Source of the DNA: a virus
DNA length: 43,989 bases
Virus record (IMG/VR): IMGVR_UViG_3300025133_000223
Location: 1-43,989 of that record
Reading direction: 5' to 3' (one strand)
The translations under genes and the position numbers were made by a program. Every line of letters begins with the position of its first letter. The first letter of the stretch is position 1. Under the pieces are notes generated by a model. The model searched no databases, was not told where the DNA came from, and was given only the letters and a program-made list of their open reading frames with translations. Shown here piece after piece: positions 2,517 to 43,989 of the stretch.

Positions 2517-3139
2517 GAAAACATTATGACATTATGGTTGACCTTGAGAGTCTGTCACTACGCCCAAGTTGTGCAATTCTACAGATTGGAGCAGTTGTGT
2601 TTGACCCTTATGGGCGGGGCATTATAGGCAAGCCCTTCCTAGTATCTGTGAAGCAGTACAGCTACTTGGACGACAAGTACAACAAGTTTCACATTGACCC
2701 TGAGACTGTTGACTGGTGGACTACTCAGTCTGAGGCTGCAAATGCTTCACTGGAATTACGGCTCGTAGATAACTTGGAGGAGGCTTTAGAGAAGTTCTTC
2801 TTCTGGATAACTAAGACCCCATTCCATAGGAAGAACGCAACTGACTCATGTATCTGGGCACAAGGGTCACAGTTTGACATAGCTGCCCTTAACCTTGCAT
2901 CGGCTGAGTTAGGTGTGACACCACCGTGGCAGTTCTACCAAGAGCGGTGCTGTCGTACTGTGATTGAGGACACGTACAGGGAACTTCTACCTTATGAAGT
3001 TGTCCAATACCCTGATGATTTGACTGCACACAGGGCTGACCACGATGCAATTAGACAAGTATATAACTTACAACTAGCACTAAGGGCAAAAAATGAAAAT
3101 AACGAATATGCCCCATTTTCTGAGGAACCCCAATCCTGA
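2513..3139 (+). CDS. DEDDh 3'-5' exonuclease (DexA/Rv2179c-like)
   Basis: A 208-residue RNase H-fold exonuclease. Visible motifs are ExoI with D10 and E12 (MVDLESLS), ExoII around D122 (QGSQFDIAALN), and ExoIII with H173 and D178 (HRADHDAIRQ), the DEDDh type. These enzymes remove nucleotides from 3' ends using two metal ions. The closest known functional relatives are T4 DexA and the Rv2179c family of RNA or DNA exonucleases. It lies between helicase and polymerase, so roles in host DNA/RNA turnover or repair are plausible. Its 3' end overlaps the polymerase start by 47 bases. Confidence 0.85.
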   Translation: MRKHYDIMVDLESLSLRPSCAILQIGAVVFDPYGRGIIGKPFLVSVKQYSYLDDKYNKFHIDPETVDWWTTQSEAANASLELRLVDNLEEALEKFFFWITKTPFHRKNATDSCIWAQGSQFDIAALNLASAELGVTPPWQFYQERCCRTVIEDTYRELLPYEVVQYPDDLTAHRADHDAIRQVYNLQLALRAKNENNEYAPFSEEPQS

Positions 3140-4952
3140 GCTATATCTATCTGACAATTATATAGTTCTTGATTTTGAAACAACTAACCTAGACAAGGGC
3201 TCTGCCCTAAACAATAACAATAAGATAGTGCTGTCAGTGTGGAAACACACTGGCAGTAAACTACACCATAGCTGGAACAACGAGTTTGACTTAGAAGAAC
3301 TAACAAAAGCAGTTGAACAAGCAGACTTCTTAGTAGCACACAACGCTAAATTCGAGCTTCAATGGCTTGCTAGATGCGGGCTTGACCTGTCCAACGTGTT
3401 AGTATATGACACGATGATAGGTGAGTACGTCATAGGCGGTAACAGGTGGAAGTACGGACAACTCAGCTTAGATAAGATAGCGAAGAAGTACGGGCTAGGA
3501 GGCAAGGAAAGCCTTGTGTCCAAACTCATTAAGCAAGGGGTGTGTCCCTCTGAGATACCTACAGAATGGCTACACAGGTACTGTGAGCAGGACGTTAGGC
3601 TGACTGAGAACCTCTTTCTATTGCAGAGAGAGCAGTTGTTGGCAGAGAAGAAACTAGCTGTCCAGTTCACACGGTGTTTACTGACACCAGTACTAGCTGA
3701 CATTGAAACTAACGGTATGCAACTAGATACCCCTAAGGTAGAGGAGGCGTACAAAAAGGCACAGAAGCTAGAGAAGAAGCTAACAATTGAGCTAAACAAG
3801 ATTGCAGTAGGAGTCAACTGGAGTTCCCCTCAGCAAGTAGCAGAGTTAGTGTACGGGGACTTAGGTTTTGAGGAGTTAAAAGACAGGAGTGGCAATGAAA
3901 TAAGAACACCAACGGGTAAAGCCAAGGCAGACAAGGAGACCCTGCCCAAACTTAAAGCTCGTACAGCAGAGCAGAAAAAGTTCTTGGAGTTATACGGCAA
4001 ATGTCGTGGGGCAAGGACGCAGTTAAGCAAGTACTTAGAGAAGTTTAAGGAGTGTTGTGACGAGAGTGGAGGGTTACTACAAGCATCTTTTAATCAGACT
4101 GCAACGTCAACCCACCGTCTGTCTAGTTCAGGCAAGACACAGTTCCAGAACTTCCCTAGGATATACAAGCACTTCTTTAAAGCTAGACACGAAGGATGGG
4201 GAGTTGGGGAGTCCGATGGAGCGCAGCTAGAGTTTAGAGTTGCAGTTCACCTAGGACGGGACAGACAAGGCCTAGCCGATATCCTGAATGACATAGACAT
4301 ACACTCATTCAGTGCTGGCATCATCTTTGGTGCTAAGAAGAATGAAATGGAGGAGAGTGAGTATAAGAGATACAGACAGAACTCTAAGGAGCACACATTT
4401 AAACCCTTATACGGAGGTACGTCAGGGACACCTAAAGAGAGGAAGTACTATAAGTTCTTCAGGGAAAGGTACACAGACATTACAAATACCCAGAACAGGT
4501 GGATAGACACCGTACTGACTCGCAAGAGTCTAGTAACAGAGTGGGGTATGGAGTATTTCTGGCCTGACACGAAGATAACAGGGTCTGGATATGTGGTTAA
4601 CACCACCTCTATCTGTAACTACCCTGTCCAAGCACTGGCTACGGCTGAGATTATACCGATTGCACTAGTATATTTCTGGCATAAAGCTAAACGCTTGGGT
4701 CTAAAGTTATTTGTTGTGAATACGATACACGATTCAATCATTGCAGAAGTTCCTCCTGATGAGGAAGATATCTTCCACGAGCTATCGAAACAGTGTTTGA
4801 TTGATGATGTATACCCTTACTTATCAAAGGTTTACAACATTAACTTTACAGCACCGTTAGGGTGTGAAACAAAGATTGGTGAGTTTTGGAGTACTGGTAA
4901 AGAAAAAGTTTACCAAGCAGACGAGGAACTTTACAAAAGTTCTGTTGTCTAA
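3093..4952 (+). CDS. DNA polymerase, family A (T7/Pol I type)
   Basis: A 619-residue protein. The N-terminal 3'-5' proofreading domain shows LDFETTN, HNAKFELQWL and YCEQDVRL. The polymerase domain has motif A as SDGAQLEFR (D375, E380, R382), motif B as R428-x3-K432-x3-F436-x3-Y440, and motif C as IHDSI (D547). Phe436 occupies the site of E. coli Phe762, and motif C carries Ser where Glu is usual (HDS rather than HDE). No 5'-nuclease domain is fused; that activity is in a separate gene at 5851. ATG 3093 has AAGGG just upstream; ATG 3108 is an alternative. Confidence 0.95.
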   Translation: MKITNMPHFLRNPNPELYLSDNYIVLDFETTNLDKGSALNNNNKIVLSVWKHTGSKLHHSWNNEFDLEELTKAVEQADFLVAHNAKFELQWLARCGLDLSNVLVYDTMIGEYVIGGNRWKYGQLSLDKIAKKYGLGGKESLVSKLIKQGVCPSEIPTEWLHRYCEQDVRLTENLFLLQREQLLAEKKLAVQFTRCLLTPVLADIETNGMQLDTPKVEEAYKKAQKLEKKLTIELNKIAVGVNWSSPQQVAELVYGDLGFEELKDRSGNEIRTPTGKAKADKETLPKLKARTAEQKKFLELYGKCRGARTQLSKYLEKFKECCDESGGLLQASFNQTATSTHRLSSSGKTQFQNFPRIYKHFFKARHEGWGVGESDGAQLEFRVAVHLGRDRQGLADILNDIDIHSFSAGIIFGAKKNEMEESEYKRYRQNSKEHTFKPLYGGTSGTPKERKYYKFFRERYTDITNTQNRWIDTVLTRKSLVTEWGMEYFWPDTKITGSGYVVNTTSICNYPVQALATAEIIPIALVYFWHKAKRLGLKLFVVNTIHDSIIAEVPPDEEDIFHELSKQCLIDDVYPYLSKVYNINFTAPLGCETKIGEFWSTGKEKVYQADEELYKSSVV

Positions 4953-10286: not shown

Positions 10287-10671
10287 TAAGCCTGATACCA
10301 ATAGAGGCTAAGCTATGTGCCACAAACACTGTCTGTAACCACAGAGGCCATCCTTGCATTATAAGTACAGCTTGAGCCACAAAGGGCTGTAGTACTGGGA
10401 TAGCCCCAGCAAAGAAGAACACCCACAGGGCGATGCTGTTCAGCTCATCCTTCCACCCTGATTGTTTCCAAGCTTCCGTAGCCCAAGACACGTCTGCAGC
10501 AGAGTCTACCTTCTTCTGTTCTGCGGCTGCCTTGGCTGCTTGTGCTGCCCACTCTGCTCTCTGGGCTGCATTCTCTAAGTCAGCAATATTCCTTTCGTGT
10601 TTACGGGCGTTGCGGTTATCAATACCCTTCACCACACTCTCTACTACCTTCCCTATAATTGGTATACTCAT
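10258..10671 (-). CDS. Holin candidate (3-span holin type)
   Basis: A 137-residue protein. Residues 15-70 form an Ala-rich charged helix, followed by a conserved-looking TEAWKQSGWKDELNSIALW junction and two to three hydrophobic segments (about 75-130). This layout (N-terminal helix, WKDE motif, then membrane spans) is that of the 3TM holin family associated with phages and gene transfer agents. Such proteins open the inner membrane so that the amidase can reach the cell wall. The start (ATG 10671) shares a base with the TGA of the upstream virion gene. Confidence 0.6.
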   Translation of the reverse strand: MSIPIIGKVVESVVKGIDNRNARKHERNIADLENAAQRAEWAAQAAKAAAEQKKVDSAADVSWATEAWKQSGWKDELNSIALWVFFFAGAIPVLQPFVAQAVLIMQGWPLWLQTVFVAHSLASIGIRLNAASKLKLS

Positions 10672-12515
10672 CAATAACCTCTTAACTTATCAAGCTCTGC
10701 CTGCCTCTTAAGCAGCTCTTTTTCTAATCTACGTCTACTTAGCTCGTCAAGAGCGTCTGCGCCGTGCTCTATTGAGTACAGTTGGTCTGTGATATCATCA
10801 ATAGCGTCTACTGTGTGGCTAATCTGTGCCTGCACCTGCTGCTTGGCTACTTTATCTACCCCGTCCTTCATAATCTTAGCGGCTTTATCTTTACCCTCTT
10901 GCGTTATTGTCTTGCCTGTGTGGGCGAGGTACTGGTCGTCAATGTCCGCCAGCCTTTTCTGCATAGCCTTTGTGATTCTACGCTCATCCAAAGATTGATT
11001 CTTCTCGAACCCCCTGTGTATTAGAGCTCTGTCCACCTCAGAGTATTGCTCCTTTAAGTCGCGAGACCTTTCCGCTGCTTTTACTCTAGCTGTTTCTAGT
11101 CTATTGCCTTCTACTATAGAGAGCTCATCCTCAAATCTTTGGGCATTGGTCATACGCTTTTCCCCAAACTTAGAGGCCATGCGCTCTTGTAACTCCTGCC
11201 CAAGTATATACTTATCAGCTTCTTTAGACACCTCTCTGCCCACGGGTGTCCCATCAACCTTTACCCACATGCGCTGGTATGGGTCGTAGTGCGCAGTCTC
11301 CCTTCCAACAAGCTCTTCCACCTGTATGCCTCTGCTGCGCCTAAGCTTATTTAGTTCTTTGTCACTAAGTTTAGGATAAAGCTTGTCCACCTCATTACTG
11401 ATTCCCCTAGTTCCTACAGGGCCACGGTAAAGCTTATCTAAAGACTTCATGGTGGAGGGCTTGAATAATTTGTCCAGCTTGGTTACCTTGGTTATACCAC
11501 CACCAACAAACCCTTCTGCTAACTCATAGGCAGCTTCTGCATCGCCCTCCATCGCCTTCTTCCAAGGCGCTGACACCTGCTCATTACGCATGTCAATGAA
11601 CTGGCCAAAGGTCTTACCTCTGTCCACGGGTTCTGGAGGCATAGCATTGACTACAGCCCCCGGCATACCCCTCTCAAATGCACCTTGCAGTGAGTCTAGG
11701 TACGGGGATATCTGCATGTCAAGAGTCTCACGCCTCTCTTGTGGAGGGAGTGCTAAGAAGTCAGGGTCTTCCTGTTGTCTCTTTAAGAGCTGCCCATACT
11801 GGTACGAGTCCTCTATCGGGCCTCTAAACCTAGGGTCTGTCACTCTCCTCTTAGAGCCTTCAATAGCAAGCTTCTCTATCTTGTCTATGTGCCCAGAGAA
11901 TAGATTTAACACCTCTGTAGGCTCTTGTGGAAAGCCCCCACCAGTGGGGTGCATCAACCAGACTCGCGCCTTCGACCTCTCCTGAGGTGTCCTAGCGTAT
12001 TTGTAGTCAAGTAGCTGGGTAAAAGCCTCCTCTGACATACCCATCTGCTTACGCAGCTCAAAGATTTTTGACCTGTTAGGGTTTTCTCTTATTGTCTTGT
12101 GTCTGAACTCATGTCTAAGGTTAGTGTCTGTATCAATGGCGTCTGTGCCACGGGCGTCCACTACGTTAGCTATTTTGCCTCGCTCAAGCGTTTTCCCATC
12201 TAATACAGATACCTCCGTAGTTCTCTTATTCCACGGATTATGCACGGCTCCTACATCTTTAAACTCATCAGGAAACTCAAAAGGTGCTACTACATCTTCG
12301 TCATACCTAGGCCACGGAGTGTCCCCTGCTGAGAACGGGCCATGCCCAGTTGGGCCGTAGTAGTCCTTGTTAGGGTCAAACTGCTTTAAAGGAGTAGGCT
12401 CTTCCTCTTCATCCGTACCTGCAAACAGGTCAATAAGGTTGCCCACAATAGAGAAAGGCCTATCAAAGGCTCTCTTACGCTCACTCCTAGCAAATGATTT
12501 TAGTTTATTAGCCAT
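10671..12515 (-). CDS. Large virion protein with an HExxH motif (614 aa)
   Basis: Belongs to the run of large late proteins behind the tail genes, where T7-like phages encode internal/ejected virion proteins. It is hydrophilic and charged, with long helical stretches (residues about 430-600). A zinc-peptidase-like HEFRH lies at residues 135-139 within a NLRHEFRHKT context, suggesting a peptidase domain as seen in some ejected polyvalent phage proteins. The rest is not recognised. It begins inside the amidase gene end (16-base overlap) and is followed directly by the holin candidate. Confidence 0.6.
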   Translation of the reverse strand: MANKLKSFARSERKRAFDRPFSIVGNLIDLFAGTDEEEEPTPLKQFDPNKDYYGPTGHGPFSAGDTPWPRYDEDVVAPFEFPDEFKDVGAVHNPWNKRTTEVSVLDGKTLERGKIANVVDARGTDAIDTDTNLRHEFRHKTIRENPNRSKIFELRKQMGMSEEAFTQLLDYKYARTPQERSKARVWLMHPTGGGFPQEPTEVLNLFSGHIDKIEKLAIEGSKRRVTDPRFRGPIEDSYQYGQLLKRQQEDPDFLALPPQERRETLDMQISPYLDSLQGAFERGMPGAVVNAMPPEPVDRGKTFGQFIDMRNEQVSAPWKKAMEGDAEAAYELAEGFVGGGITKVTKLDKLFKPSTMKSLDKLYRGPVGTRGISNEVDKLYPKLSDKELNKLRRSRGIQVEELVGRETAHYDPYQRMWVKVDGTPVGREVSKEADKYILGQELQERMASKFGEKRMTNAQRFEDELSIVEGNRLETARVKAAERSRDLKEQYSEVDRALIHRGFEKNQSLDERRITKAMQKRLADIDDQYLAHTGKTITQEGKDKAAKIMKDGVDKVAKQQVQAQISHTVDAIDDITDQLYSIEHGADALDELSRRRLEKELLKRQAELDKLRGY

Positions 12516-12907
12516 TCTTGTACATCAAAGCAAGGGCAAGCTTTATCACTCACCTCGTTATGTCCGATTACTTTAGCGTCTGGATACATTCTTCGTAGAA
12601 ACTCTACAGTTGTGCTCAAGCTTTTCCACTGGTCTATCGTGTAGTTCTCTTCGGGCTCTCTCTCTTCGTTCGCGCCGCCAATCATACAGATACCAACTGA
12701 CCTCAAGTTGGAACCCCTTACGTGTGCGCCTACCGCATCCACATGCCTTCCAGCCTCTACTGAACCGTCGCGCCTTATCACAAAGTGATACCCAATTCCG
12801 TCCCAGCCACGCTCCTTGTGCCATTCGTCTATCGTGTCCCTTCCAATATCCATACTGGGTGGAGTGGCAGCACAGTGGACTACAATGTAGTCTGTGTATT
12901 CCCTCAC
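12500..12907 (-). CDS. N-acetylmuramoyl-L-alanine amidase (T7 lysozyme-like endolysin)
   Basis: A 135-residue enzyme that cleaves the amide bond between muramic acid and L-alanine in peptidoglycan. Zinc ligands are visible at H11 (IVVHCAA), H116 (IGHNE) and C124, with the catalytic Lys two residues before the cysteine (K122), matching T7 H17, H122, C130 and K128 in spacing. YHF at 40-42 also fits. The start is GTG at 12907, overlapping the stop of the 1117-residue gene. No N-terminal signal is seen, so export needs a holin. T7 lysozyme also inhibits phage RNA polymerase, but none is present here. Confidence 0.93.
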   Translation of the reverse strand: MREYTDYIVVHCAATPPSMDIGRDTIDEWHKERGWDGIGYHFVIRRDGSVEAGRHVDAVGAHVRGSNLRSVGICMIGGANEEREPEENYTIDQWKSLSTTVEFLRRMYPDAKVIGHNEVSDKACPCFDVQEWLIN

Positions 12908-15900
12908 TGTACGCCCCTAGCTTCTTTCTCTCTGTCCATAGCAGTGCCACCACTACCATTCTGCTGCATCTGCTTCTGGATAGCTTCCATGATTCTTGGG
13001 TTGGCTTGAACCTCAGGCGGGAGTGAGTTCATAAACTCAATCTGCTTCCTAAAGGACTGTCTCTGTTGCTGCGCCTGCTGTATACCGTACAGGGCTGCAG
13101 CTACTTGGTCGTCCTCTCCTCTCCACCACTCAATGTGGTCACTACGGAGTTTATTACCTTTGACACCTTCCCAACCCTCTCCAATAAATATACCTACTTG
13201 GTCAAGGATAGTAGCTATAGCAGCAAAGTCTCCGGGCTTAACCCACTTGAGTTCATTGTACTTAGCTAACTTTTTAGGGTTAGTCATTATGTCGCGCAAC
13301 GCTTTGTTACCATTCTCTTTGAGGATACGGGTAATAGCAGTAAGACCACGTTGTTTCTTGGACAGAGGCCCAAGCAATGCCCTTGTAAGCTGTAGTATAG
13401 CAGGCTGTGCAGAGTCCTTAGAGGCCTGTGCCATACCACTCTTATCAATCATCTTCAAGACAGCCTGCAAGTCCTGCAACTGGCTAATGTACTTATTCCC
13501 GTAGAGCACTCGTAAACGCTCCCCTTGAGTGTCTAGCACCTTAGCTAGGCTTGAGGAGTTAACCTCTAAGCCACCAGTCTTGACCAGCTCATTGTCTAAC
13601 CACTTGGCTCCATTAGCTTGAATATCTTCCCAAAGTGCAGGAGCTATCTTGCTAAGCCTTGTCTTAAGGTTACGCACTTGGTTAAGTGTGAGCTTGTTTG
13701 TGAGCATATCCTCTACAAGGTTACCTGCATAGAACTTCTCATCAGTAACCATGCCAATGCCATACTCCTTCTCTAAAGCGCGTTTGACTGCTCCTGCTTT
13801 TCTATTGAGGGTATCTACGCTCTGTAACAGAGAACCAGAACCTTGTATATGCTCAGCCTGCTCTTTACCAAAGATTAAGTCCATATGGTCAGTGTAGTCA
13901 TTCATGAACTGCTCGTGGCCAGCCAGTGTAGGCTTACCGCCCTTAAACACCTTCTCCTTATACATACGCAGCAGCTCTTCTCCCAATGCTGCCTTGTGGG
14001 CAGGGGATGCACCAGTAACCTCTAGTATGTCTGAGAGGCCTCCAGTATCTCTAGGCTTGAACACTATGTCTGCTACAGCAGCAGGGTTGTTCTTAATCTT
14101 ATACCTAAGAACCTTCTTACCCTTCTCTTCTACTGCTACTAAAGCAACAGTATCTGACACTACACGCTTATCAGTAAAGATGTTATAGTTCTCGGTGGCA
14201 CGGGCTGCATTGTCCCATGACTCAATTACCTTAGCACCATAGTCCGCAGACATGGCTTTGCCACTCTTGTTCACATAGCGGTTAGGGTCTCTCTTAAGGG
14301 TCTCTAAGGAATCAATAAGGAAACTCATATCGTGGATATTCCACCCATCAGGGTGCTTACCCTCTTTAGCAATACGCACCTGCCTCTTAAGGTCAGACAG
14401 TAAGTACTGCACCTGCACGGGGTCTAGCGTCCTCTGTGAGAGAAACTCAAGGCCATCATCTTCAGTTACGCCTCGCTTGCGCAGTGCTCTAGCTTCGTCA
14501 GTGAAGCCCATGTTTTCCCTAATACTTGCCTTAGACCTTTGTATACTCTTAGAGAGCGCCATCTGCTCGTCCTTGGACATACGGTTAGCCCACTGCAGTA
14601 TAGGGGAAGGCCTGCCATCTATAGTCGTGTTAAGGAGGTGTACGCCAGTGTTGCCAGTCTTAGGGTTGTACTGGACACGGCTCTCAAAGCCTCCTTTAGA
14701 TTTCCACGCTCTGTCCTCTTCCATCATGAGTCTATCAGCATTCTGGTTGATAGCATTCTGCTCTGAGACCCAGTGGTCAGGTTTGTATACCCTGTCACTT
14801 ACGTCTCCACCATACTCAATGATATCTGCCTCAGCCTGAGCAAGGTCACTCTGTGCTCCCTTAAGGCTAGTACCTGTGCCGGGGGCTAAGTCATGCTGTA
14901 AAGCTTGCTGAGCTTTCTGTCCAGAACTGGCAGAAGTGTTTAAACTCCTTGGGCCCCCACGGACAGTGACCTGCCCATGTATAGAGTCAAGAGTACGCTG
15001 TGTCTCAAACCTATTACTTATCTCTATCCCTTTGAGGAACTCAGAAAACTTATCCTTGGCACGGCGCATGACGTTCTGCTGCGCCACAAGCACCACAGGG
15101 TCTCCTGTCAGCTCTCCTGCTGCAAGGTTATACTGAGACCCAGTCTCACGCTCCAACCTCTCTACTATCTTGAGGTTCTCAGACATCTCAGCCACTAACT
15201 GCTCATACTCCTCATCAGTAAGGTCTAAGGGTCTGCGGCTGTTGCGTATACGCCTAACAAGTCCCATACCAGCACCAGCCACTAGCTCACTAGAGCCTGC
15301 CATCATAGCGTCAAACCATGCTTGGTCGTCTGTGATAGTATCAAGAACACTCTGAGGGACGCCAAACGTCTTAGCAATTCCCTTCTGTATCTTAGTAACT
15401 GTATATCCAGCGGCTGCTGAACCAGCAGAAGCTAGTAACACAGAACCAGTAGGACTCTTGCCTGCTGCAGCGCCTGCTGCGGCTGCTGAGGTCTCTATCA
15501 CAGCTCTAGGTACTTCCACCCCTAAGAAGTCAATAACGTCGTCAGGGGCCATACCCTCCCTGTTAATGAGGGTCTTGCGGAGCTGTCCTGTCTCTTCATC
15601 TAACCTGTAGTAGGCTGGTTGGGACGTAGTAAGGTCTTTAGTTACGATAGCCCTGTTATCAGGCCATTCAATACCCTGACTCCTTAGCTTCTTCCTTGCA
15701 GCTATCTCCACTAAGCCCAGTACGGCTAGAGGGAAACCGCGCAACAAATGGATTGATGCACCTTCATCAGTTGAATAGGGGAAGTCAATGCCTGTGGACG
15801 TATCTACACCATTCTGCCTAGCCATAGCGTAGTAGTCTTCGGACTGGGGGTTCTCGTAGTCAATGGGCCGTCTTGCAGGGCCAGACGGTGGGTTGGGGAG

Positions 15901-16257
15901 CCCAAGAGGGTTAGCCATAAAAGCCATAGGAGGGGGCGCGTAAACAGTGCCGTCACCAATAGGCTCCTCTGAAATCATGGGCTGAACAGCTTTCCACTTT
16001 TTATCCTGTGACCATGTATCCAAGGCGTTCAAGGCCTTGTCCATGTCAGGGGCAGACATGTTTATCTGTCCGTCATAGTGTGCGGCTATAGAGTCCTGCA
16101 CCATCTGTGCATCCTCATCTGAGCCAAGCACGAGTGGGCCTGCTTCCTGTGAAGCACGTTGCTCTATACGCTTGCGTATAGAAGCCTTCTCTTCCTCAGA
16201 AAAATTAGAAGCTTCTAAGTCAGCCAGCACGGCTGCTTTATCAAACTCAGGCCGCAT
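12904..16257 (-). CDS. Very large internal/ejected virion protein (1117 aa)
   Basis: The largest gene of the genome, in the position of T7 gp16-type ejection proteins. It is mostly hydrophilic and helical, with an Ala/Gly-rich hydrophobic patch at about residues 250-300 (VIETSAAAAGAAAGK and following) that could enter membrane. The C-terminus is Gln-rich (QQAQQQRQSFRKQ). I see no clear transglycosylase motif. It is coupled to its neighbours by 1-4 base overlaps, so it is expressed with the structural genes. Confidence 0.72.
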   Translation of the reverse strand: MRPEFDKAAVLADLEASNFSEEEKASIRKRIEQRASQEAGPLVLGSDEDAQMVQDSIAAHYDGQINMSAPDMDKALNALDTWSQDKKWKAVQPMISEEPIGDGTVYAPPPMAFMANPLGLPNPPSGPARRPIDYENPQSEDYYAMARQNGVDTSTGIDFPYSTDEGASIHLLRGFPLAVLGLVEIAARKKLRSQGIEWPDNRAIVTKDLTTSQPAYYRLDEETGQLRKTLINREGMAPDDVIDFLGVEVPRAVIETSAAAAGAAAGKSPTGSVLLASAGSAAAGYTVTKIQKGIAKTFGVPQSVLDTITDDQAWFDAMMAGSSELVAGAGMGLVRRIRNSRRPLDLTDEEYEQLVAEMSENLKIVERLERETGSQYNLAAGELTGDPVVLVAQQNVMRRAKDKFSEFLKGIEISNRFETQRTLDSIHGQVTVRGGPRSLNTSASSGQKAQQALQHDLAPGTGTSLKGAQSDLAQAEADIIEYGGDVSDRVYKPDHWVSEQNAINQNADRLMMEEDRAWKSKGGFESRVQYNPKTGNTGVHLLNTTIDGRPSPILQWANRMSKDEQMALSKSIQRSKASIRENMGFTDEARALRKRGVTEDDGLEFLSQRTLDPVQVQYLLSDLKRQVRIAKEGKHPDGWNIHDMSFLIDSLETLKRDPNRYVNKSGKAMSADYGAKVIESWDNAARATENYNIFTDKRVVSDTVALVAVEEKGKKVLRYKIKNNPAAVADIVFKPRDTGGLSDILEVTGASPAHKAALGEELLRMYKEKVFKGGKPTLAGHEQFMNDYTDHMDLIFGKEQAEHIQGSGSLLQSVDTLNRKAGAVKRALEKEYGIGMVTDEKFYAGNLVEDMLTNKLTLNQVRNLKTRLSKIAPALWEDIQANGAKWLDNELVKTGGLEVNSSSLAKVLDTQGERLRVLYGNKYISQLQDLQAVLKMIDKSGMAQASKDSAQPAILQLTRALLGPLSKKQRGLTAITRILKENGNKALRDIMTNPKKLAKYNELKWVKPGDFAAIATILDQVGIFIGEGWEGVKGNKLRSDHIEWWRGEDDQVAAALYGIQQAQQQRQSFRKQIEFMNSLPPEVQANPRIMEAIQKQMQQNGSGGTAMDREKEARGVQ

Positions 16258-32535: not shown

Positions 32536-33519
32536 ATGAGTATTTCCAATAGTGTTAAGAGCAAAGCCGAAGCATTAGGTGTAACTGATTCAGAGCTTGA
32601 ATCAATTAAAGGCACAGGCAGTAGAGGCAATATTTTGATTGCTGATATTGTTGCCTTTGTTGATGCCCGTTCAGAGTCTGCGCAGGGTTCACTACAAAAC
32701 GTGATATCCGAAGCACCAAAGCCAGAGGTTAAAGTGCCGAGCGTGGTCAATCAGAAAGCAATTGAGATTCTTACAATTGCCGTGACTGACTCCCTTGATG
32801 CTGAAACACAACGACAGGCGGCGCTGGTTAAAGCTCAGGGAGTCTATGTAACGCATACCCACGCGGCTATAGAGTGTGAAACATTTGCAAGCTATAAAGC
32901 CACGACAGCATTCCTGATGCATCAGATACAGACTAACGCTGATGGAATTGCCGTTCGCATGGGTTGCATTATCGGAAAGCGTAAAGACAAGGAAACAGGT
33001 CAACTGTTATACAAGTTGCCTAGTAGCTGGAATACCGCTACGAGTTTCCTGCGATACGCCAAAGAGAATGCTTTGCCTTTAGTTGATGCAGAAGGGCGCG
33101 TTCTAAGTTTTGAAACAATCAAACAATCAGTGATTGATGCAAAAACGAAGGACAATCCTGATGAAGATAAAATTGACAAGGCAGTACGCGAAGCAGGTGA
33201 AAAATGCGAGGGTATTAAAACTCGTGGAAAGCATCTGAATCCCGAAGTAGCCGAGCTTTATAGCGAGCTAATGACAGGCGTAAGAGCATGGGTAATGTCT
33301 CACAATGTCAACGGTGAATATTCTCGCCTTGATTGCACCGCAGTTGTTGAGCGGTCAATTGAAATACTGAGAATCACACCAGCAATGATAGAGGCCGGTG
33401 TTTCCGCAGCTGATGAGCTTTCAGAAGCCGTGATTGAAACAGAAGCCGAAGTTGATGCAGACTCCATACAGGGTGACGTTGATGCCATTATGGAAGCTTT
33501 GGCAGGGGATGCAGAATGA
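32536..33519 (+). CDS. First rightward gene: unknown protein with PSBD-like N-terminus (327 aa)
   Basis: Residues about 14-42 (LGVTDSELESIKGTGSRGNI) match the peripheral-subunit-binding-domain pattern (a small helical fold with GTGxxGRI), known from 2-oxoacid dehydrogenase E2 proteins and also seen in some phage proteins as a small binding domain. The rest is helical with no motif I recognise; the last 45 residues are very acidic (EAVIETEAEVDADS). As the first gene after a boxA-type leader it is probably early and abundant. Codon use differs from the small genes downstream. Confidence 0.7.
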   Translation: MSISNSVKSKAEALGVTDSELESIKGTGSRGNILIADIVAFVDARSESAQGSLQNVISEAPKPEVKVPSVVNQKAIEILTIAVTDSLDAETQRQAALVKAQGVYVTHTHAAIECETFASYKATTAFLMHQIQTNADGIAVRMGCIIGKRKDKETGQLLYKLPSSWNTATSFLRYAKENALPLVDAEGRVLSFETIKQSVIDAKTKDNPDEDKIDKAVREAGEKCEGIKTRGKHLNPEVAELYSELMTGVRAWVMSHNVNGEYSRLDCTAVVERSIEILRITPAMIEAGVSAADELSEAVIETEAEVDADSIQGDVDAIMEALAGDAE

Positions 33520-33784: not shown

Positions 33785-33815
33785 AGCCCAGTCAGAAATG
33801 GCTGGGCTTTTTTTT
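33785..33815 (+). terminator. Strong rho-independent terminator
   Basis: AGCCCAGTC-AGAAAT-GGCTGGGCT forms a nine-pair stem (one G-U) followed by eight T. It closes the two-gene unit 32536-33764 and separates it from the next promoter at 33967. Confidence 0.92.
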
Positions 33816-36603: not shown

Positions 36604-37122
36604 ATGCCACAAGAGAAGCAGAAAAAGAAGGAACCTAACAAAGACAAGCCAATGGTCTTTGTGTATGGCACACTTAAAAAAGACCATCCCAATCATGGGT
36701 ACTTGCGCCATTCTGAGTTTGTCCGTAGAATGTACCTCACCAAAGACTTTTACATGGTGAGCCTTGGTGGGTTCCCTGCTATTGTCAGTTCACATGACAT
36801 TGAAAAGCCTCCGAAAGCATTGGGCAAGCCTTACCATATCTACGGTGAGCTTTACCGTGTCAATGCTGCAACCCTCGAATCCCTCGACTGCCTCGAAGGT
36901 CACCCTGACTTTTACTCAAGGAAGCAATTAGATGTTCATGATATGGAAGAAAATGCGTGGGTATATGTACTCCCCAAATCGTACGTTGTGGATGATACCC
37001 TCAAAGCCCGCGCGGGGCTTAGTTCTGCGCTTATTTCCGAAGGCGTTTGGCTTCCAACCGATGAAGAAGCCACATGGATGCGTGGCCTCACAGATGAAGG
37101 AGCAACAATCAATGTTAAATAA
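36604..37122 (+). CDS. AIG2/gamma-glutamylcyclotransferase-like protein (172 aa)
   Basis: Start at ATG 36604, with GAAGGAG eight to nine bases upstream, in preference to the ATG 12 codons earlier. After a Lys-rich leader comes FVYGTLKKDHPNHGYL (residues 19-34), the substrate-loop motif of the GGCT fold, then GELYRV (81-86) and LDCLEGHPDFYSRK (94-107) with E98 at the catalytic acid position. GGCT enzymes cyclise gamma-glutamyl-amine isopeptides, releasing 5-oxoproline. In this cassette it may trim or reverse products of the neighbouring ligases. Confidence 0.8.
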   Translation: MPQEKQKKKEPNKDKPMVFVYGTLKKDHPNHGYLRHSEFVRRMYLTKDFYMVSLGGFPAIVSSHDIEKPPKALGKPYHIYGELYRVNAATLESLDCLEGHPDFYSRKQLDVHDMEENAWVYVLPKSYVVDDTLKARAGLSSALISEGVWLPTDEEATWMRGLTDEGATINVK

Positions 37123-37828
37123 AGATACTGACCACGTTTATCTACTGGTTCCTGTCCCTACTGGCACTAAGCGGGGGTCGAGGCAAGACGTGGTGTATGC
37201 TTCATTCCTGTCTACCTCGCTACGTATGTTTGCCTCTATTAGCTTCAAGGGTCGTCCAGCAGACAACTGTTGTGGGGCGTGGCATATGTGGGAGCCTCGC
37301 GTATCTTTGGGGCGGTGGAATAAAGAGAAGTCTGTATGGGGGAACACCGAACCGCCTTCCAACTACCACTTTGATATTGATAAGTACCTGCCTAAAGGGT
37401 CTGTGACAACACCAGAAGAGTTTGAGCGGTATGCGTGGGCGTGTCTTGCCAATGCTGTAGCTGCTCATTCCTGCTCAGTGCGTCAGGCTGCTGCCTTCTG
37501 CCAAGATGGAGATAGAAAGAAGGTTGACAGGCTGGCAGAGGAAATGACTTACCTCCAGCGCACGGTGATTAACAATGCTACAGGGGCTGAGGCTATCTCT
37601 GTACGCGGGTACATGACTGACTTGTTGTGTTACAATACCTGTGATGTAGTAGTGCATCACCACAAGTTCCCTTCATCACATGGGGAGTATATGTGCAATG
37701 GGTACTGTATCACCTTTGAGCGTGTGCCTTGGCGTGGCACTGCGCAGTCTGTGCCTAAGTCACAGTACATTAGCACACACAAAAATACTTTAGTGCAAGC
37801 CAAAGAAGGCACTAAAGGTCAATGGTAA
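37112..37828 (+). CDS. Cassette protein of unknown function (238 aa)
   Basis: Start at ATG 37112, overlapping the AIG2-like gene by 11 bases with GAAGGAG upstream. The first 90 residues contain Trp/Pro/Gly-rich text (AWHMWEPRVSLGRWNKEK). A helical middle follows (about 105-165), then a Cys/His-rich part (CYNTCDVVVHHHKF, EYMCNGYC) that could bind metal. Tight coupling within the amidoligase cassette implies a linked role, but I recognise no family. Confidence 0.65.
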   Translation: MLNKDTDHVYLLVPVPTGTKRGSRQDVVYASFLSTSLRMFASISFKGRPADNCCGAWHMWEPRVSLGRWNKEKSVWGNTEPPSNYHFDIDKYLPKGSVTTPEEFERYAWACLANAVAAHSCSVRQAAAFCQDGDRKKVDRLAEEMTYLQRTVINNATGAEAISVRGYMTDLLCYNTCDVVVHHHKFPSSHGEYMCNGYCITFERVPWRGTAQSVPKSQYISTHKNTLVQAKEGTKGQW

Positions 37829-37849
37829 CAACAACGTGAGGAATAGATA

Positions 37850-38698
37850 ATGTCTTTTACATTTGGTGCTGACCCAGAAGTATTCGTTTCGGACAGGCGT
37901 ACAAATAGCCTTGTGCCTGTATGCGGTTTGTTAGGGGGGACTAAGAAAGAACCTAAGCGCATGAAAGGTATGAAGCAAGGCTTTGCTTATCAGGAAGATA
38001 ATGTCATGGCCGAGTTCAATGTGCCTCCAACTGGCGACCTTAATATGTTCATGGTGAACATACACACAGGTCTACAGGGTGTGCGTGATGCCTTGGCTGA
38101 TAAAAACCCAAACCTTGATGTGGTAAGAGGCAACGAGTTTCTGTTTAACTATAGCAAGCTCAATAGTCCTGAGGCTAAGGTGTTTGGCTGCTCACCTGAC
38201 TTTAATGCTTACACGCATGGGCAGGCTCGTGAGGCTATCAACCCCAATGACTTGCGTGAAACAGAGGGGGAGTGGCGGTTTGCTGGGGGACACGTACACA
38301 TAGGCACAGACATGATAGGTACAACAGATGATAAGATGCCGCCATTTGTTCTGGCTATGCTCTGTGATGTGCTGATTGGCTTGCCTTCTGTGTCTGCTGA
38401 TAAGCAAGGGGGTAGACGCAGTAAGTATGGGCAAGCAGGGACGTTCCGCCCAACAAGCTATGGTCTTGAGTATCGTGTGCTGTCTAACTTCTGGGTATTT
38501 GAGCGGGAGTACACGCGCAACATTGCGCAGCGACTCTCTGCCCTGAAGTATATGCTGCGAGAGCGCGACATGGACTTCTTCCGCACCCTCATTGCTGAGG
38601 CTCCGTGGGAAGATGTACAGGCAGCAATCAACACAGAGAACGAGGAAATGGCTTCCTCCCTGATAAATCACTTTGGTGGCAGAGGGTTACGCATATGA
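37850..38698 (+). CDS. COOH-NH2 ligase, type 2 amidoligase (phiEco32-type)
   Basis: A 282-residue protein of the glutamine-synthetase-fold amidoligase superfamily. Visible motifs are FGADPEVFVSD (D8, E10) at the start, YQEDNVMAEFNVPP (E55, N57), AGGHVHIGTD (H148, H150) and SYGLEYRVLSNFW, all expected around the ATP/metal site. Such enzymes join a carboxyl group to an amine with ATP, as in glutamate-cysteine ligase. The N-terminal GADPE signature is that of the phiEco32 group. Substrates are unknown. Confidence 0.85.
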   Translation: MSFTFGADPEVFVSDRRTNSLVPVCGLLGGTKKEPKRMKGMKQGFAYQEDNVMAEFNVPPTGDLNMFMVNIHTGLQGVRDALADKNPNLDVVRGNEFLFNYSKLNSPEAKVFGCSPDFNAYTHGQAREAINPNDLRETEGEWRFAGGHVHIGTDMIGTTDDKMPPFVLAMLCDVLIGLPSVSADKQGGRRSKYGQAGTFRPTSYGLEYRVLSNFWVFEREYTRNIAQRLSALKYMLRERDMDFFRTLIAEAPWEDVQAAINTENEEMASSLINHFGGRGLRI

Positions 38699-39348
38699 GT
38701 ATTGAAGCAAGGGGTAGTGACCTGAGACAGTGGATACGGGGAGGTACGTGTATTATTGACAATGCACCTAATGCCATAGCCCACAATATCTCAGTGTCTG
38801 AGAGTGGGCGCATGGAAGCGCAGTGCTACAGGCTTAATAGTGAAGGTAAGGTAGAGGCTTTTGCTCATAATGTAAGTGCCAACAATCTCACTTTGTGGTG
38901 GCCTCTGATACGCTGTGTCTCCATAAAGCGTAGTGGGTTTGAGTTTGGCCTCAACAGCTACAGGGTAGGGGCGCGTCAGTGGCGCAGAACCTACCACCCT
39001 GAGTTTGCCCATGTGGAAATCATCAGGGATTATGATGTGGCTTATGAGTCAGGGGAGCGAGTGAGCCACGTAAGTGCAACTGATGCTGATTATGTGCTTG
39101 CCTTAAAGAACTATGAGTACTTACCCTGCGATGAGGCTATGGCGCGTATGCAAGCCAATGATAAGTGCTTGTCTCTTGCAGTCAATGACAACACTGTCCT
39201 GTACTATGACGTGAACGGGCGGTTCTTGGTGTACTATCGAGGAGAGTACGTTGCTGACATTGATGCCAGAACCCATTACCTGTCCTGCTTCAAAGAGGGG
39301 ACAATCGAAAAACGTCTGTCTAAAGCCTTAGGAGTACCATTAGCATGA
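38695..39348 (+). CDS. Cassette protein of unknown function (217 aa)
   Basis: Start at ATG 38695 (ATGA overlap with the type 2 amidoligase) rather than the upstream in-frame ATG at 38605. The product is mixed alpha/beta with many Tyr/Trp/Asn residues (NLTLWWPLIRCVSIKRSG, VLYYDVNGRFLVYYRGEYV). It lies between two amidoligase genes with four-base overlaps on both sides, so it probably belongs to the same pathway. I recognise no family or catalytic motif. Confidence 0.65.
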   Translation: MSIEARGSDLRQWIRGGTCIIDNAPNAIAHNISVSESGRMEAQCYRLNSEGKVEAFAHNVSANNLTLWWPLIRCVSIKRSGFEFGLNSYRVGARQWRRTYHPEFAHVEIIRDYDVAYESGERVSHVSATDADYVLALKNYEYLPCDEAMARMQANDKCLSLAVNDNTVLYYDVNGRFLVYYRGEYVADIDARTHYLSCFKEGTIEKRLSKALGVPLA

Positions 39349-40424
39349 AGGAAAACACAATTGCACAACTGAACAGGGCTGTTAAGCAAGGCAGGAAGCA
39401 CCTGTTTGAGCGGCCTAAACGCCTGAGCAAGGGACGACTTCTCTCTGATTGGGCTATAGGGCTAGAGTTAGAGTACGAGGACGTTACTGGTGGCTCTACC
39501 AGATTAGCGCGTGATGATAGCCCGTGGGAAGTCACAGGGGATGGTTCCTTGCGCAACATGGGTGCTGAGTTCCGGTTCAAACAAGGACTTGGGGGCAAGG
39601 AAGCATTGGACGCCATTGATATGTTCTATGATATCAAGCGCAAGTCAGGTAAGGCATGGGCGGCCAACAGGCGCACCAGTGTACACGTACACCTTAATAT
39701 GCTCCCCCTCACTTATGGGGAGGTGCAGAGGATACTAGCCGTGTACGGACTTGTTGAGCCAGCACTCTATACCTTTGTAGGGGCAGAGCGAGAGGAGAAT
39801 ATCTACTGCATACCTTTTTATCGAGCAGACAAGGTAGATGTAGGTAGGATTAAAGAGTTGGACATGATGGCTAAGGACGAGAAGATAGACACGACTGATG
39901 TTCGTGCGTACTTTCGTCACACCTTCAGACATAACAACAAGTACTCTGGCCTCAACACTCAGTGTCTCGCATCATTTGGCACTCTGGAGTTCAGGCAAGC
40001 CCCGTCACTATCACGGCCTAAGCTATTGGTTTGGTTGAACTTATTGACCAGCATAGCCCATTATGGTTTAGAGGCAGAATCGACAGAGGAGATAATAGCC
40101 CAGTATGAGGAGCTTGGTGCGTTGCTTTTCTGTCGCAAAGTCTTTGGGGAATACTACTCCAACCTTGACATAAGGGAACTAAACACACGTACTGGCAAGA
40201 AACTACAAGCGTTCAATGATGCTGTTGATGTAGTCTCTATTGCCGAGCGTTTAGGGGGTATCTTGCCCGTCAGGAAGGCAGACACTGGTGCTATGTGGCA
40301 GATAGGCTCAAGTGTTGTCGGGCGTAGGAGTAAGGAAAGGAAGCCGAAGAAAAAGAGGTTGTATGGCAAGAGAAAGCCTAAGTATTTAAATATGTTACCA
40401 CCTGAAAATGATATTAACGGTTAA
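39345..40424 (+). CDS. Amidoligase (second, distinct family member, 359 aa)
   Basis: Shows the amidoligase pattern: WAIGLELEYED (E41, E43) for metal binding, TGDGSLRNMGAEFRF (D66, E75), TSVHVHLNM (H114, H116) and TLEFRQAPSLSR late in the fold. It is longer and different in sequence from the type 2 enzyme at 37850, so two different amide bonds or two partners may be involved. The C-terminal 40 residues are very basic (RRSKERKPKKKRLYGKRKPK). It overlaps the upstream gene by four bases. Confidence 0.83.
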   Translation: MKENTIAQLNRAVKQGRKHLFERPKRLSKGRLLSDWAIGLELEYEDVTGGSTRLARDDSPWEVTGDGSLRNMGAEFRFKQGLGGKEALDAIDMFYDIKRKSGKAWAANRRTSVHVHLNMLPLTYGEVQRILAVYGLVEPALYTFVGAEREENIYCIPFYRADKVDVGRIKELDMMAKDEKIDTTDVRAYFRHTFRHNNKYSGLNTQCLASFGTLEFRQAPSLSRPKLLVWLNLLTSIAHYGLEAESTEEIIAQYEELGALLFCRKVFGEYYSNLDIRELNTRTGKKLQAFNDAVDVVSIAERLGGILPVRKADTGAMWQIGSSVVGRRSKERKPKKKRLYGKRKPKYLNMLPPENDING

Positions 40425-40436
40425 GGAGCAAAACCA

Positions 40437-41981
40437 ATGTGTGGAATAGTTGGATTTATCACCAACGAGACGGAGCAAGGTGCGCAAGTGCGCCGAGCTT
40501 ACTCAGAGTTGGCCTTAGTACTAGATTCTATCCGAGGGGATGATTCTACAGGCGTGTTCTTTCTTGAACATAAGCCGACAACAGACGCACCCCCTGTCAT
40601 AAAGACAGATGCAGATGGGTATGCCTTTGTTAATACACCTGAGTATATGGCCTATATGGAAGATGTGTCGGCCTATCGTGCTGTTGTGGGACATAATCGT
40701 GCTGCCACTCGTGGGGGAATCTCTCCTGCTGCAGCACACCCGTTCCAAGAAGGGGCAATTACCCTTGTGCATAATGGAACGATACAAACAGGCAGCTTGC
40801 CCATAAAGTTTGAGAAGAAGTTAGCGACCACTGTGGACTCTCACCTGCTCACATACAACCTTAGTCAGAAGCCTTACAAGGAGGTTTTAGAGGCTATTGA
40901 TGGGGCGTTTGCTCTGGTGTGGCATGACTCTAGGGACGATGCTATAAGGGTGTCAAGGAACGGGGAAAGACCCTTACACTTTGTACGGTCATTGGAACAG
41001 GATACTATCTTCTTTGCTTCTGAAGCACAGATGCTTACCCTGCTCATGGATAACCTGATGCATCGGTGTACTGACATAATGCAGCCTGAGGTAGGGGAAC
41101 TATTCACCTTCCATAAAGGTCAAAAGCAGCCTACAAAGGAGGTACTTACCCTACGCCCAAAAGTGCAAGCATATTCCCCGAACCAAAGTTGGGGCAACCG
41201 TCACAATGGCACGAGAAACTCGTATTCTGGGGAATCATCTGGTGGTTCGCGCTCGTTCTCCTCATCCGCTACGATTAATAACCGAGGCAAGTACAAGATA
41301 GGGTATGAGAACTACAAGCAGGTTCCTGCACCTCTTGCGCAGTACCTAAGGCAGGAAACGGACTACAGTTGCTACAAGTACTACCCGTTCACCCCTCTTA
41401 ACTCTATTAACTTACATTGCCATAGTGGTCAGACACCTATATGGTCGTCAGTTTTGGGGCGTATTGGTACTGACTTGGTGAATCATGAGGCACTTATCAT
41501 CAAGCACATCATCCATAAGTATGACAAGGAAAAGGATAACGAGTGGACTGTGCAGCCTATTGGTATGAAGTACCGTGTAGATGAGGCAACAGGGGAGCGT
41601 ATACCTGTAATCATCTGTCGTGAGGTGCTATACACTGTGCATCAGGAAGCCAGAGAGTGGGGCGTAGCCGAGGATAGGAAAGTAGTGGCTAAACAAGAGG
41701 TAAAGGAGAAGGCTAAACACGTAGGAGAGTTCGTAACTGGCCCGTATTCCGTGAAAATACCAGTTACTGAGTATCTCGACCTCACCCGTGATGGATGTGG
41801 GTTCTGTCGTCAGCAGATAACTATACCTGAGGCCGATAGACTGTTCTGGCTGGAAGGTGAAGCACATACTCCGGGCTTAGAACCTATCTGTGAGGGTTGT
41901 GCAGGTAGTGTGGTCATGGGTGCTGATGGTATAGTATCTGAAGGACGGCTAAACATTTTAGAAATCAAGGAGATACACTAA
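40437..41981 (+). CDS. Class II glutamine amidotransferase with Cys-rich C-terminal part (514 aa)
   Basis: Starts MCGIVGFI with the N-terminal nucleophile C2. GHNRAATRGG (R88), AAHPF (H101), HNGTI (N113, G114) and D134 complete the glutaminase site, which releases ammonia from glutamine. The C-terminal 250 residues are not a known synthase. They contain a Ser/Gly/Asn-rich linker (about 250-285) and a four-cysteine site C454, C457, C485 and C488, probably binding zinc. The ammonia could feed one of the neighbouring ligases to form an amide. Confidence 0.87.
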   Translation: MCGIVGFITNETEQGAQVRRAYSELALVLDSIRGDDSTGVFFLEHKPTTDAPPVIKTDADGYAFVNTPEYMAYMEDVSAYRAVVGHNRAATRGGISPAAAHPFQEGAITLVHNGTIQTGSLPIKFEKKLATTVDSHLLTYNLSQKPYKEVLEAIDGAFALVWHDSRDDAIRVSRNGERPLHFVRSLEQDTIFFASEAQMLTLLMDNLMHRCTDIMQPEVGELFTFHKGQKQPTKEVLTLRPKVQAYSPNQSWGNRHNGTRNSYSGESSGGSRSFSSSATINNRGKYKIGYENYKQVPAPLAQYLRQETDYSCYKYYPFTPLNSINLHCHSGQTPIWSSVLGRIGTDLVNHEALIIKHIIHKYDKEKDNEWTVQPIGMKYRVDEATGERIPVIICREVLYTVHQEAREWGVAEDRKVVAKQEVKEKAKHVGEFVTGPYSVKIPVTEYLDLTRDGCGFCRQQITIPEADRLFWLEGEAHTPGLEPICEGCAGSVVMGADGIVSEGRLNILEIKEIH

Positions 41982-42811
41982 TGCGTTTATTTTTGTATGC
42001 TACCCGACCTAGCCGTGGGGCTAGAGCACTCGCAAGAGCGTTGGGTATAAAAAAGATAAGAACAAGCAACTCAAGGTATAAGCCGAGGGCAACTGACGTA
42101 ATTGTCAATTGGGGTAACACCACTATACCTGTGTTTGCACCTGCAAGGGTGCTTAATACACCACAGGCTGTGGCTAACTCCAGCAACAAGCTGACTACCT
42201 TCAGGCTGCTAGAAGAAGCAGGGGTTAACATTCCTCTCTACACAACAGAAGCTGCTAAAGTTGTTGAGTGGCTCAAGAACAACTATGTTGTAGTGGGGCG
42301 GCAGTTGTTACGGGCAGGTGAAGGGCGTGGTATTGTCATGCTCGACCCTGCTGACCCTGATGTGCTAGAGAAACTTAAGTGTCCTTTGTACACCTTGTAC
42401 AGGAAAAAGAAGGACGAATATCGTGTTCATGTAATGAATGGCAAAGTTATTGATGCTCAAAAGAAACGGAGGGCAGTAAGTGATGGCCGATGGAAAGGTG
42501 ACAACCGTATTAGAAACTCGCTTGGAGGTTGGGTCTTTACAAGAGAAAACATCAGCGTTCCCAAAGATGTTCTTGAAGCCTCGACCAAAGCTGTTGGGAC
42601 ACTTGGACTCGATTTCGGAGCAGTCGATTGCGGCTACTCTGTGTCCAGAGCTAGGGCAACTGTTTACGAGGTCAACTCAGCAGCAGGAGTCACCGCCACC
42701 ACGCTCGAGAGGTACGCGAAGGGGCTTGAGGAGAACTTCGCCACGGGCTACTCGAAGCCAAGACGAGCAAGACGTGTTAGACGCACGGGCAGAGCAGGAG
42801 CGGCGACTTGA
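41981..42811 (+). CDS. ATP-grasp ligase (RimK-like, 276 aa)
   Basis: Contains the ATP-grasp elements VVVGRQLLRAGEGRGIVM (103-120), KDEYRVHVMNGKVID (144-158), LDFGAVDCG (210-218) and TVYEVNSAAG (227-236; E230, N232 for magnesium). Such enzymes add amino acids or other amines to a carboxylate through an acyl phosphate. The last 18 residues are Arg-rich (KPRRARRVRRTGRAG), coded in the stretch shared with the next frame. From about 42483 the codons avoid NTA/NTG and use TCG/CTC/GTC, unlike the first part of the gene. Confidence 0.87.
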   Translation: MRLFLYATRPSRGARALARALGIKKIRTSNSRYKPRATDVIVNWGNTTIPVFAPARVLNTPQAVANSSNKLTTFRLLEEAGVNIPLYTTEAAKVVEWLKNNYVVVGRQLLRAGEGRGIVMLDPADPDVLEKLKCPLYTLYRKKKDEYRVHVMNGKVIDAQKKRRAVSDGRWKGDNRIRNSLGGWVFTRENISVPKDVLEASTKAVGTLGLDFGAVDCGYSVSRARATVYEVNSAAGVTATTLERYAKGLEENFATGYSKPRRARRVRRTGRAGAAT

Positions 42812-43519: not shown

Positions 43520-43989
43520 ATGTCTAGACAAGACGCATTACTAGAAGCTGAGGCAGTAGCACTGAACCTAGCTCCTAGCGATAGGACGAACCACTTTACC
43601 TGCCCTACCTGTGGAGGTGGTGCAAGTAGAGAGAAGTCCTTTGTCGTGTGGAAGAATGAGGATGGGTTAGGTATTGGTTGGAAGTGCTACCGCGATAAGT
43701 GCAATGAGGCAGGGTTCAAGGCTGAGAGTGGCTGGCTACCTGCTAATGTATCAGAGAGTAGACCTGCACCCCGTACCCGCCCTTGGAAAGGCGAACAGTT
43801 GAGGCTGACGCGGGAGCAGGACACCTTTCTTCTTAACCTCATAGGCTTTACTAAGGTGCATAAAAGAACCTCAGGAGTACGGTTCGCACCAGAAGCAAAC
43901 AGATTTATTTTTCCTATATTCTCCCCTGACATGGAACGCAGGGGGGTTGTGCTAAGGTCGTACACAGGAACAAAACCTAAAGCACTGAC
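43520..43989 (+). CDS. DNA primase, zinc-binding N-terminal part (continues at window base 157)
   Basis: First part of the 287-residue primase (the last 156 bases repeat the window start). A T7-type zinc domain is seen: C28 and C31 (HFTCPTCGG), then C56 and C61 (KCYRDKCNEAGF), which read the priming site in the template. A Pro/Arg linker follows before the catalytic core, whose TOPRIM motifs are coded at 227-365. ATG 43520 is used because the ATG at 43512 is in a frame closed at once. The upstream control region has a palindrome and repeats. Confidence 0.9.
   Translation, partial: MSRQDALLEAEAVALNLAPSDRTNHFTCPTCGGGASREKSFVVWKNEDGLGIGWKCYRDKCNEAGFKAESGWLPANVSESRPAPRTRPWKGEQLRLTREQDTFLLNLIGFTKVHKRTSGVRFAPEANRFIFPIFSPDMERRGVVLRSYTGTKPKAL
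43834..43989. repeat. Terminal redundancy, right copy
   Basis: Identical to 1-156 except for G at 43960 (A at 127). See the left copy. The single difference is silent and could be strain variation in the source population or a sequencing error. Confidence 0.95.

Follow-up and report, generated by a model that had tools for sequence, protein, structure and literature searches.

A divergent amidoligase cassette of the RIO-1/phiEco32/LUZ24 type in a podovirus-like phage

The virus record IMGVR_UViG_3300025133_000223, analysed here over its whole length of 43,989 bases (the window), carries at positions 36604–42811 seven tightly coupled genes that almost certainly constitute a divergent example of the RIO-1/phiEco32/LUZ24-type amidoligase cassette, which is widespread among phages. 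A COOH-NH2 ligase, an Amidoligase_2, an ATP-grasp ligase, an enzyme of class II amidotransferase fold and a gamma-glutamyl cyclotransferase (GGCT) are all present, and the cassette lies beside a primase gene. Three predicted ATP-dependent carboxylate–amine ligases of two folds are thus combined with the class II enzyme, the GGCT and a further protein, B, in one coupled early operon. Beyond this assignment, the new elements of the analysis are that protein B is a near-universal part of such cassettes, and that GGCT and a C26-type gamma-glutamyl hydrolase seem to be mutual stand-ins. With B among the core components and GGCT and C26 listed as alternatives, the inventory of the cassette is fuller, and the old question of its product and target becomes open to direct test.

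Enzymes of the cassette and their co-occurrence

The seven genes all lie on the plus strand, with neighbours overlapping or separated by at most ~21 nt, in agreement with the coordinates and tight coupling given in a preliminary description of the window made from its sequence alone. The GGCT (AIG2-like; 36604..37122) matches PF06094 (E = 2.7e-21) and phrog_2520 (5.5e-18) and contains YGTLK and YGELY segments; it is followed by protein A (37112..37828), by the type-2 COOH-NH2 ligase, a glutamine synthetase (GS)-like amide ligase (37850..38698; PF14395, 4.3e-6; phrog_3815, 1.9e-61), and by protein B (38695..39348). A second GS-like ligase, the Amidoligase_2 (39345..40424; PF12224, 4.6e-7; phrog_7469, 2.1e-35), precedes the class II glutamine amidotransferase-fold, N-terminal nucleophile (Ntn) enzyme (40437..41981; PF13522 (GATase_6), 6.8e-16; phrog_4736, 6.8e-58) and the RimK-like ATP-grasp ligase (41981..42811; phrog_2599, 1.1e-71). 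The four Pfam matches all exceed gathering scores. The five enzyme identities proposed in the preliminary description are therefore upheld by family matches and profile searches, whereas proteins A and B taken alone match no family in Pfam or PHROG, and the start of gene A had to be corrected to the ATG at 37112.

Residue conservation was judged in alignments with ~10 phage relatives. The COOH-NH2 ligase keeps the D8/E10, HVH and R residues typical of its family, the Amidoligase_2 keeps GxExExE, HVH and ExR, the ATP-grasp ligase D216/E230/N232, and the class II enzyme its N-terminal Cys2, R88, N113-G114 and D134. The ATP-grasp profile matches solved structures of the alpha-L-glutamate ligase RimK (3.7e-11). 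For the class II enzyme, weak PDB matches were obtained to GlmS and to EgtC, the nearest solved sequence relative (E = 0.002), which hydrolyses a gamma-glutamyl amide. Pfam finds the GATase domain alone, followed by a long C-terminal region instead of a fused synthase domain; an ammonia-channelling amidotransferase, in which a glutaminase is fused to a synthase, was rejected on this ground, and the role of "ammonia donor" originally given to this protein is one reading only. The class II proteins of the window and of several relatives end in a zinc-ribbon-like CxxC...CxxC arrangement (window 41800–41981).

In tblastn searches of 50,697 phage records, the COOH-NH2 ligase, ATP-grasp and Amidoligase_2 gave counts of 316, 314 and 307, respectively, with near-identical host tallies. 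Each of the three was then used as a separate anchor on viral contigs extending at least 6.5 kb to both sides, and the other core enzymes were present at 36–38 of 38 loci for the COOH-NH2 ligase, 38–43 of 43 for ATP-grasp and 37–38 of 38 for Amidoligase_2, which bears out the co-occurrence on which the preliminary description had depended. At the 110 dereplicated viral loci over which B, GGCT and C26 were also counted, the enzymes are almost always found together. The same gene set, usually close to the primase, is found in annotated unrelated phages (tf, phiEco32, Zobellviridae, LAh_8, Slicky01, Lyrsu01, an Alcaligenes phage, a Rhizobium phage and a crAss-like phage). The comparison with phiEco32-like phages drawn earlier was thus correct as to type, but the cassette is not confined to them and was already known as a seven-gene unit. 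A COOH-NH2 ligase profile found 535 viral stretches against 15 contigs from 84,980 bacterial and archaeal genomes, and these 15 are probably phage-derived because all come from metagenome bins and are shorter than 50 kb. Several hundred reference phages carry the cassette, among them well-studied laboratory phages of Pseudomonas and Escherichia coli; it also occurs in crAss-like phages and is essentially virus-specific. Single-protein viral searches with A, B or the COOH-NH2 ligase of the window returned no relative, alignments being required, and a nucleotide search detected no similarity between the window and any record of the phage collection.

Proteins B and A and the alternative gamma-glutamyl enzymes

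Protein B, which by itself has no tblastn relative in reference phages, was placed by means of a hidden Markov model (HMM) built from nine B proteins and extended without the window sequence; the model matches window B at E = 3.5e-14, and other members of the family match phrog_4877 or phrog_11055. B is a near-universal core component of the cassette, present at 95 of the 110 loci. At all 15 loci lacking it, the Amidoligase_2 carries an N-terminal extension of 86–218 aa, and an extension of at least 100 aa occurs at none of the 95 loci that possess B. Because of this pattern, B is probably a partner of Amidoligase_2 or, where fused, a domain of it, as the sequences suggest. Homology between B and the extension was not detectable (HHalign E = 0.81; a single HMM match at 0.0022, in locus L082), so that the extension replaces B in position only. 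AlphaFold predicts the structure of B with confidence (pLDDT 93.1, pTM 0.87). The model matches ten phage proteins, and part of it weakly resembles DUF8033 domains; no PDB entry matched with E ≤ 0.001, the top matches at TM ~0.2 representing noise.

Ahead of the COOH-NH2 ligase, in the slot that protein A takes in the window, very divergent proteins are likewise common, and the suggestion that the two unassigned genes might mark a variant of the system consequently does not hold. Window A, for which tblastn of reference phages also gave no relative, can be aligned over 162 columns with A proteins from its closest relatives (L013–L021; HHalign E = 8e-4), and belongs to a fast-evolving family with a conserved CCG motif, which it carries. 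Motifs of the C-C-G or C-F-G type occur in 17% of neighbouring open reading frames (ORFs) compared to 3% in shuffled sequence, and are thus ~5 times commoner; an N-x-N-S-G motif further along is common to many A-slot proteins and is missing from window A. Proteins with a CFG motif, such as gp87 of phiEco32 and those of LAh_8 and similar phages, were considered for inclusion in the CCG family and left out, the homology being unproven (HHalign E = 0.23–0.94). The model of window A has low confidence (pLDDT 54.7), and its GNAT-like order of strands and helices, with a weak best GNAT match (E = 0.15), provides a weak lead towards a GNAT-like fold. A short A-family member in L079 has a GNAT P-loop (YRRKGVG); on reading, the acetyl-CoA P-loop RxxGxG/A is absent from window A, and protein A is therefore not classed as an acetyltransferase. 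Two CCG-motif A-family proteins lie near the cassette in L006 (6676–7410 and 7391–7969, tandem overlapping paralogues), L089 (6978–7604 and 8462–9004) and L105 (4657–5313 and 13321–13797).

The two enzymes that could act on gamma-glutamyl groups are distributed in a complementary manner. GGCT alone occurs at 34 of the 110 loci, a C26-type gamma-glutamyl hydrolase alone at 47, both at 27 and neither at 2 (Fisher p = 2e-9), and the states change 19 and 12 times on the ligase tree. Simulated independent evolution on this tree gave P ~0.004 or less at rates of at least 0.5, and 0.06–0.18 at slower rates, for which few draws were accepted. Insofar as GGCT and C26 replace each other, with only two loci devoid of both, it would seem that the cassette requires a gamma-glutamyl group to be removed and that either enzyme can do so. 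Together with the EgtC-like glutaminase fold and the GS-like ligases, this would favour gamma-glutamyl chemistry over a mere supply of ammonia.

Genomic setting, proposed mechanism and rival explanations

The window has a 156-bp direct terminal repeat, so the record is probably complete, and its source is a podovirus-like phage. The cassette occupies the early/replication half of the genome, directly ahead of the primase, helicase and polymerase genes: the primase begins at 43520..43987 on the plus strand and runs on across the terminal repeat to 2–550, followed by a DnaB-like helicase (513–1751) and then DNA polymerase (3093–4952). The other strand carries the packaging, head, further structural and lysis genes. 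In the related phage PSA-HP1, the cassette genes are transcribed immediately upon infection (PMC7082346). The early or middle placement apart from virion genes, as first described, is thereby confirmed, and the action on the host deduced from it agrees with the published view, itself a hypothesis.

Several features of the surroundings may be recorded. At 33785–33808 on the plus strand, upstream of the small early genes, there is a strong terminator-like hairpin of 10 pairs followed by seven T, and no plus-strand site of equal strength was found from there to the end of the cassette. An early protein of 327 aa (32536–33519), which has no PHROG match, is related to proteins encoded ahead of the cassette in L014 and L016. 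On the minus strand, adjoining the lysis amidase, proteins of 1117 aa (12904–16257) and 614 aa (10671–12515) also lack a PHROG match. In several phages the cassette is preceded, at a distance of a few kb, by genes of NAD-salvage type (L002, 994–3275; L058, 2058–3692; L092, 2071–3705; L068, 710–2305), encoding ribose-phosphate pyrophosphokinase and nicotinate phosphoribosyltransferase, or nicotinamide phosphoribosyltransferase-like proteins.

On balance, we lean towards a reading in which this divergent cassette builds amide bonds, includes a gamma-glutamyl step and acts on a peptidoglycan precursor. A single cytosolic substrate would receive amide bonds one after another from the ligases, B serving Amidoligase_2 as its partner domain. 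One ligase may form a gamma-glutamyl amide, either transient or protecting, which the GGCT, or the C26 hydrolase in other phages, would strip, while the class II enzyme would handle glutamine or the gamma-glutamyl intermediate. By a guess taken from the literature, the substrate would be the precursor peptide of host peptidoglycan, and its alteration early in infection could exclude other phages or prepare lysis. The superinfection hypothesis is repeated for the seven-gene "peptidoglycan modification cassette" (PMC5498523), and altered peptidoglycan has been proposed as preparing lysis (PMC11945000); both sources give peptidoglycan as target only as a hypothesis, and no experiment on product or target of the cassette was found in the literature. 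By reading, none of the seven proteins has an obvious signal peptide, which would restrict reachable targets to cytosolic precursors or proteins.

Several considerations weigh against this reading. A wall that is altered only where it is newly synthesised offers a poor barrier to superinfection, and the whole mechanism is deduced from sequence, with a hypothetical substrate and product. The fusion pattern behind the role of B is strong but reflects few independent events, most B-less loci probably being related. The GGCT/C26 complementarity is weaker once relatedness is modelled, with a rate-dependent outcome, and a phylogenetic pairs test of the two was powerless owing to too few supported pairs. 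A more specific version, which we entertain only tentatively, would make B an obligate Amidoligase_2 partner (its place being taken by a fused N-terminal domain in crAss-like phages and their relatives) in a gamma-glutamyl protect-and-remove pathway with interchangeable GGCT and C26, directed at a cytosolic target other than peptidoglycan.

RimK, the enzyme closest to the ATP-grasp ligase, adds glutamate to ribosomal protein S6. This raises the prospect that the cassette instead attaches amino acids or a short peptide to a protein of the host (or phage), in the manner of RimK/TTL, thereby taking over transcription or translation. The cytosolic appearance of all seven proteins and the immediate expression in PSA-HP1 (PMC7082346) accord with such tagging, which has already been proposed for other phage ATP-grasps, the R2K clade. 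However, three ligases and two gamma-glutamyl enzymes exceed the needs of one tag, and no target protein or recognition domain was identified, so we consider tagging unlikely, if a serious competitor. Less probable still is the synthesis of a small diffusible amide or peptide, serving as a counter-defence molecule or enzyme inhibitor and made via a gamma-glutamyl protecting group. Here the precedent is butirosin biosynthesis, whose BtrJ/BtrG form a ligase and GGCT pair paralleled in the cassette, and the EgtC-like class II enzyme and the alternation of GGCT and C26 would also fit; yet the window cassette has no recognisable carrier protein or tailoring enzyme. None of the seven proteins matched a PADLOC model, which neither supports nor excludes a role in counter-defence. 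The position directly beside primase, helicase and polymerase might further evoke modification of phage DNA bases with amino acids, but 5-hydroxymethyluracil-based modifications of this kind require base-hypermodification enzymes (e.g. dUMP hydroxymethylase, 5hmdU kinase), and none was found among the 20 larger window proteins tested, some small ORFs lying outside the test; this explanation is highly improbable.

Relation to known cassettes and enzymes

In PMC5498523, a paper of 2017, the list of phages with the cassette (RIO-1, phiEco32, 7-11, PA11, tf, MR299-2, LUZ24, PaP3 and CW02) is credited to Hardies et al. 2013 (J Virol 10.1128/JVI.01521-13). The RIO-1/PSA-HP1 cassette, as described in that paper, shares with the window the gamma-glutamyl amidoligase, second amidoligase, ATP-grasp, GGCT and class II amidotransferase, as seven genes amid replication genes, although the window sequence is strongly diverged. 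phiEco32 gp77–gp87 (L007), also beside primase/helicase, comprises GGCT, ATP-grasp, GATase II, Amidoligase_2, B (gp85), COOH-NH2 ligase and an A-slot gene, gp87, a CFG-motif protein whose homology to window A is unproven. It differs in having the GGCT at the opposite end, extra small ORFs, and longer C-termini on the GATase II and ATP-grasp proteins. LUZ24 and tf (L003) retain the order A slot, COOH-NH2 ligase, B, Amidoligase_2, GATase II, ATP-grasp and also possess a GGCT, which unlike that of the window lies at the downstream end; in addition, a 69-aa ORF separates their GATase II and ATP-grasp genes.

Among characterised enzymes, RimK (ribosomal protein S6--L-glutamate ligase) shares the ligase fold and the D/E/N metal ligands with the window ATP-grasp protein, at moderate profile similarity only. 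In ergothioneine biosynthesis a GCS-like ligase, EgtA, which we take to resemble a cassette ligase in fold, is paired with EgtC, a class II Ntn enzyme cleaving a gamma-glutamyl amide; this combination parallels the cassette, although the sequence link between EgtC and the window class II enzyme is weak.

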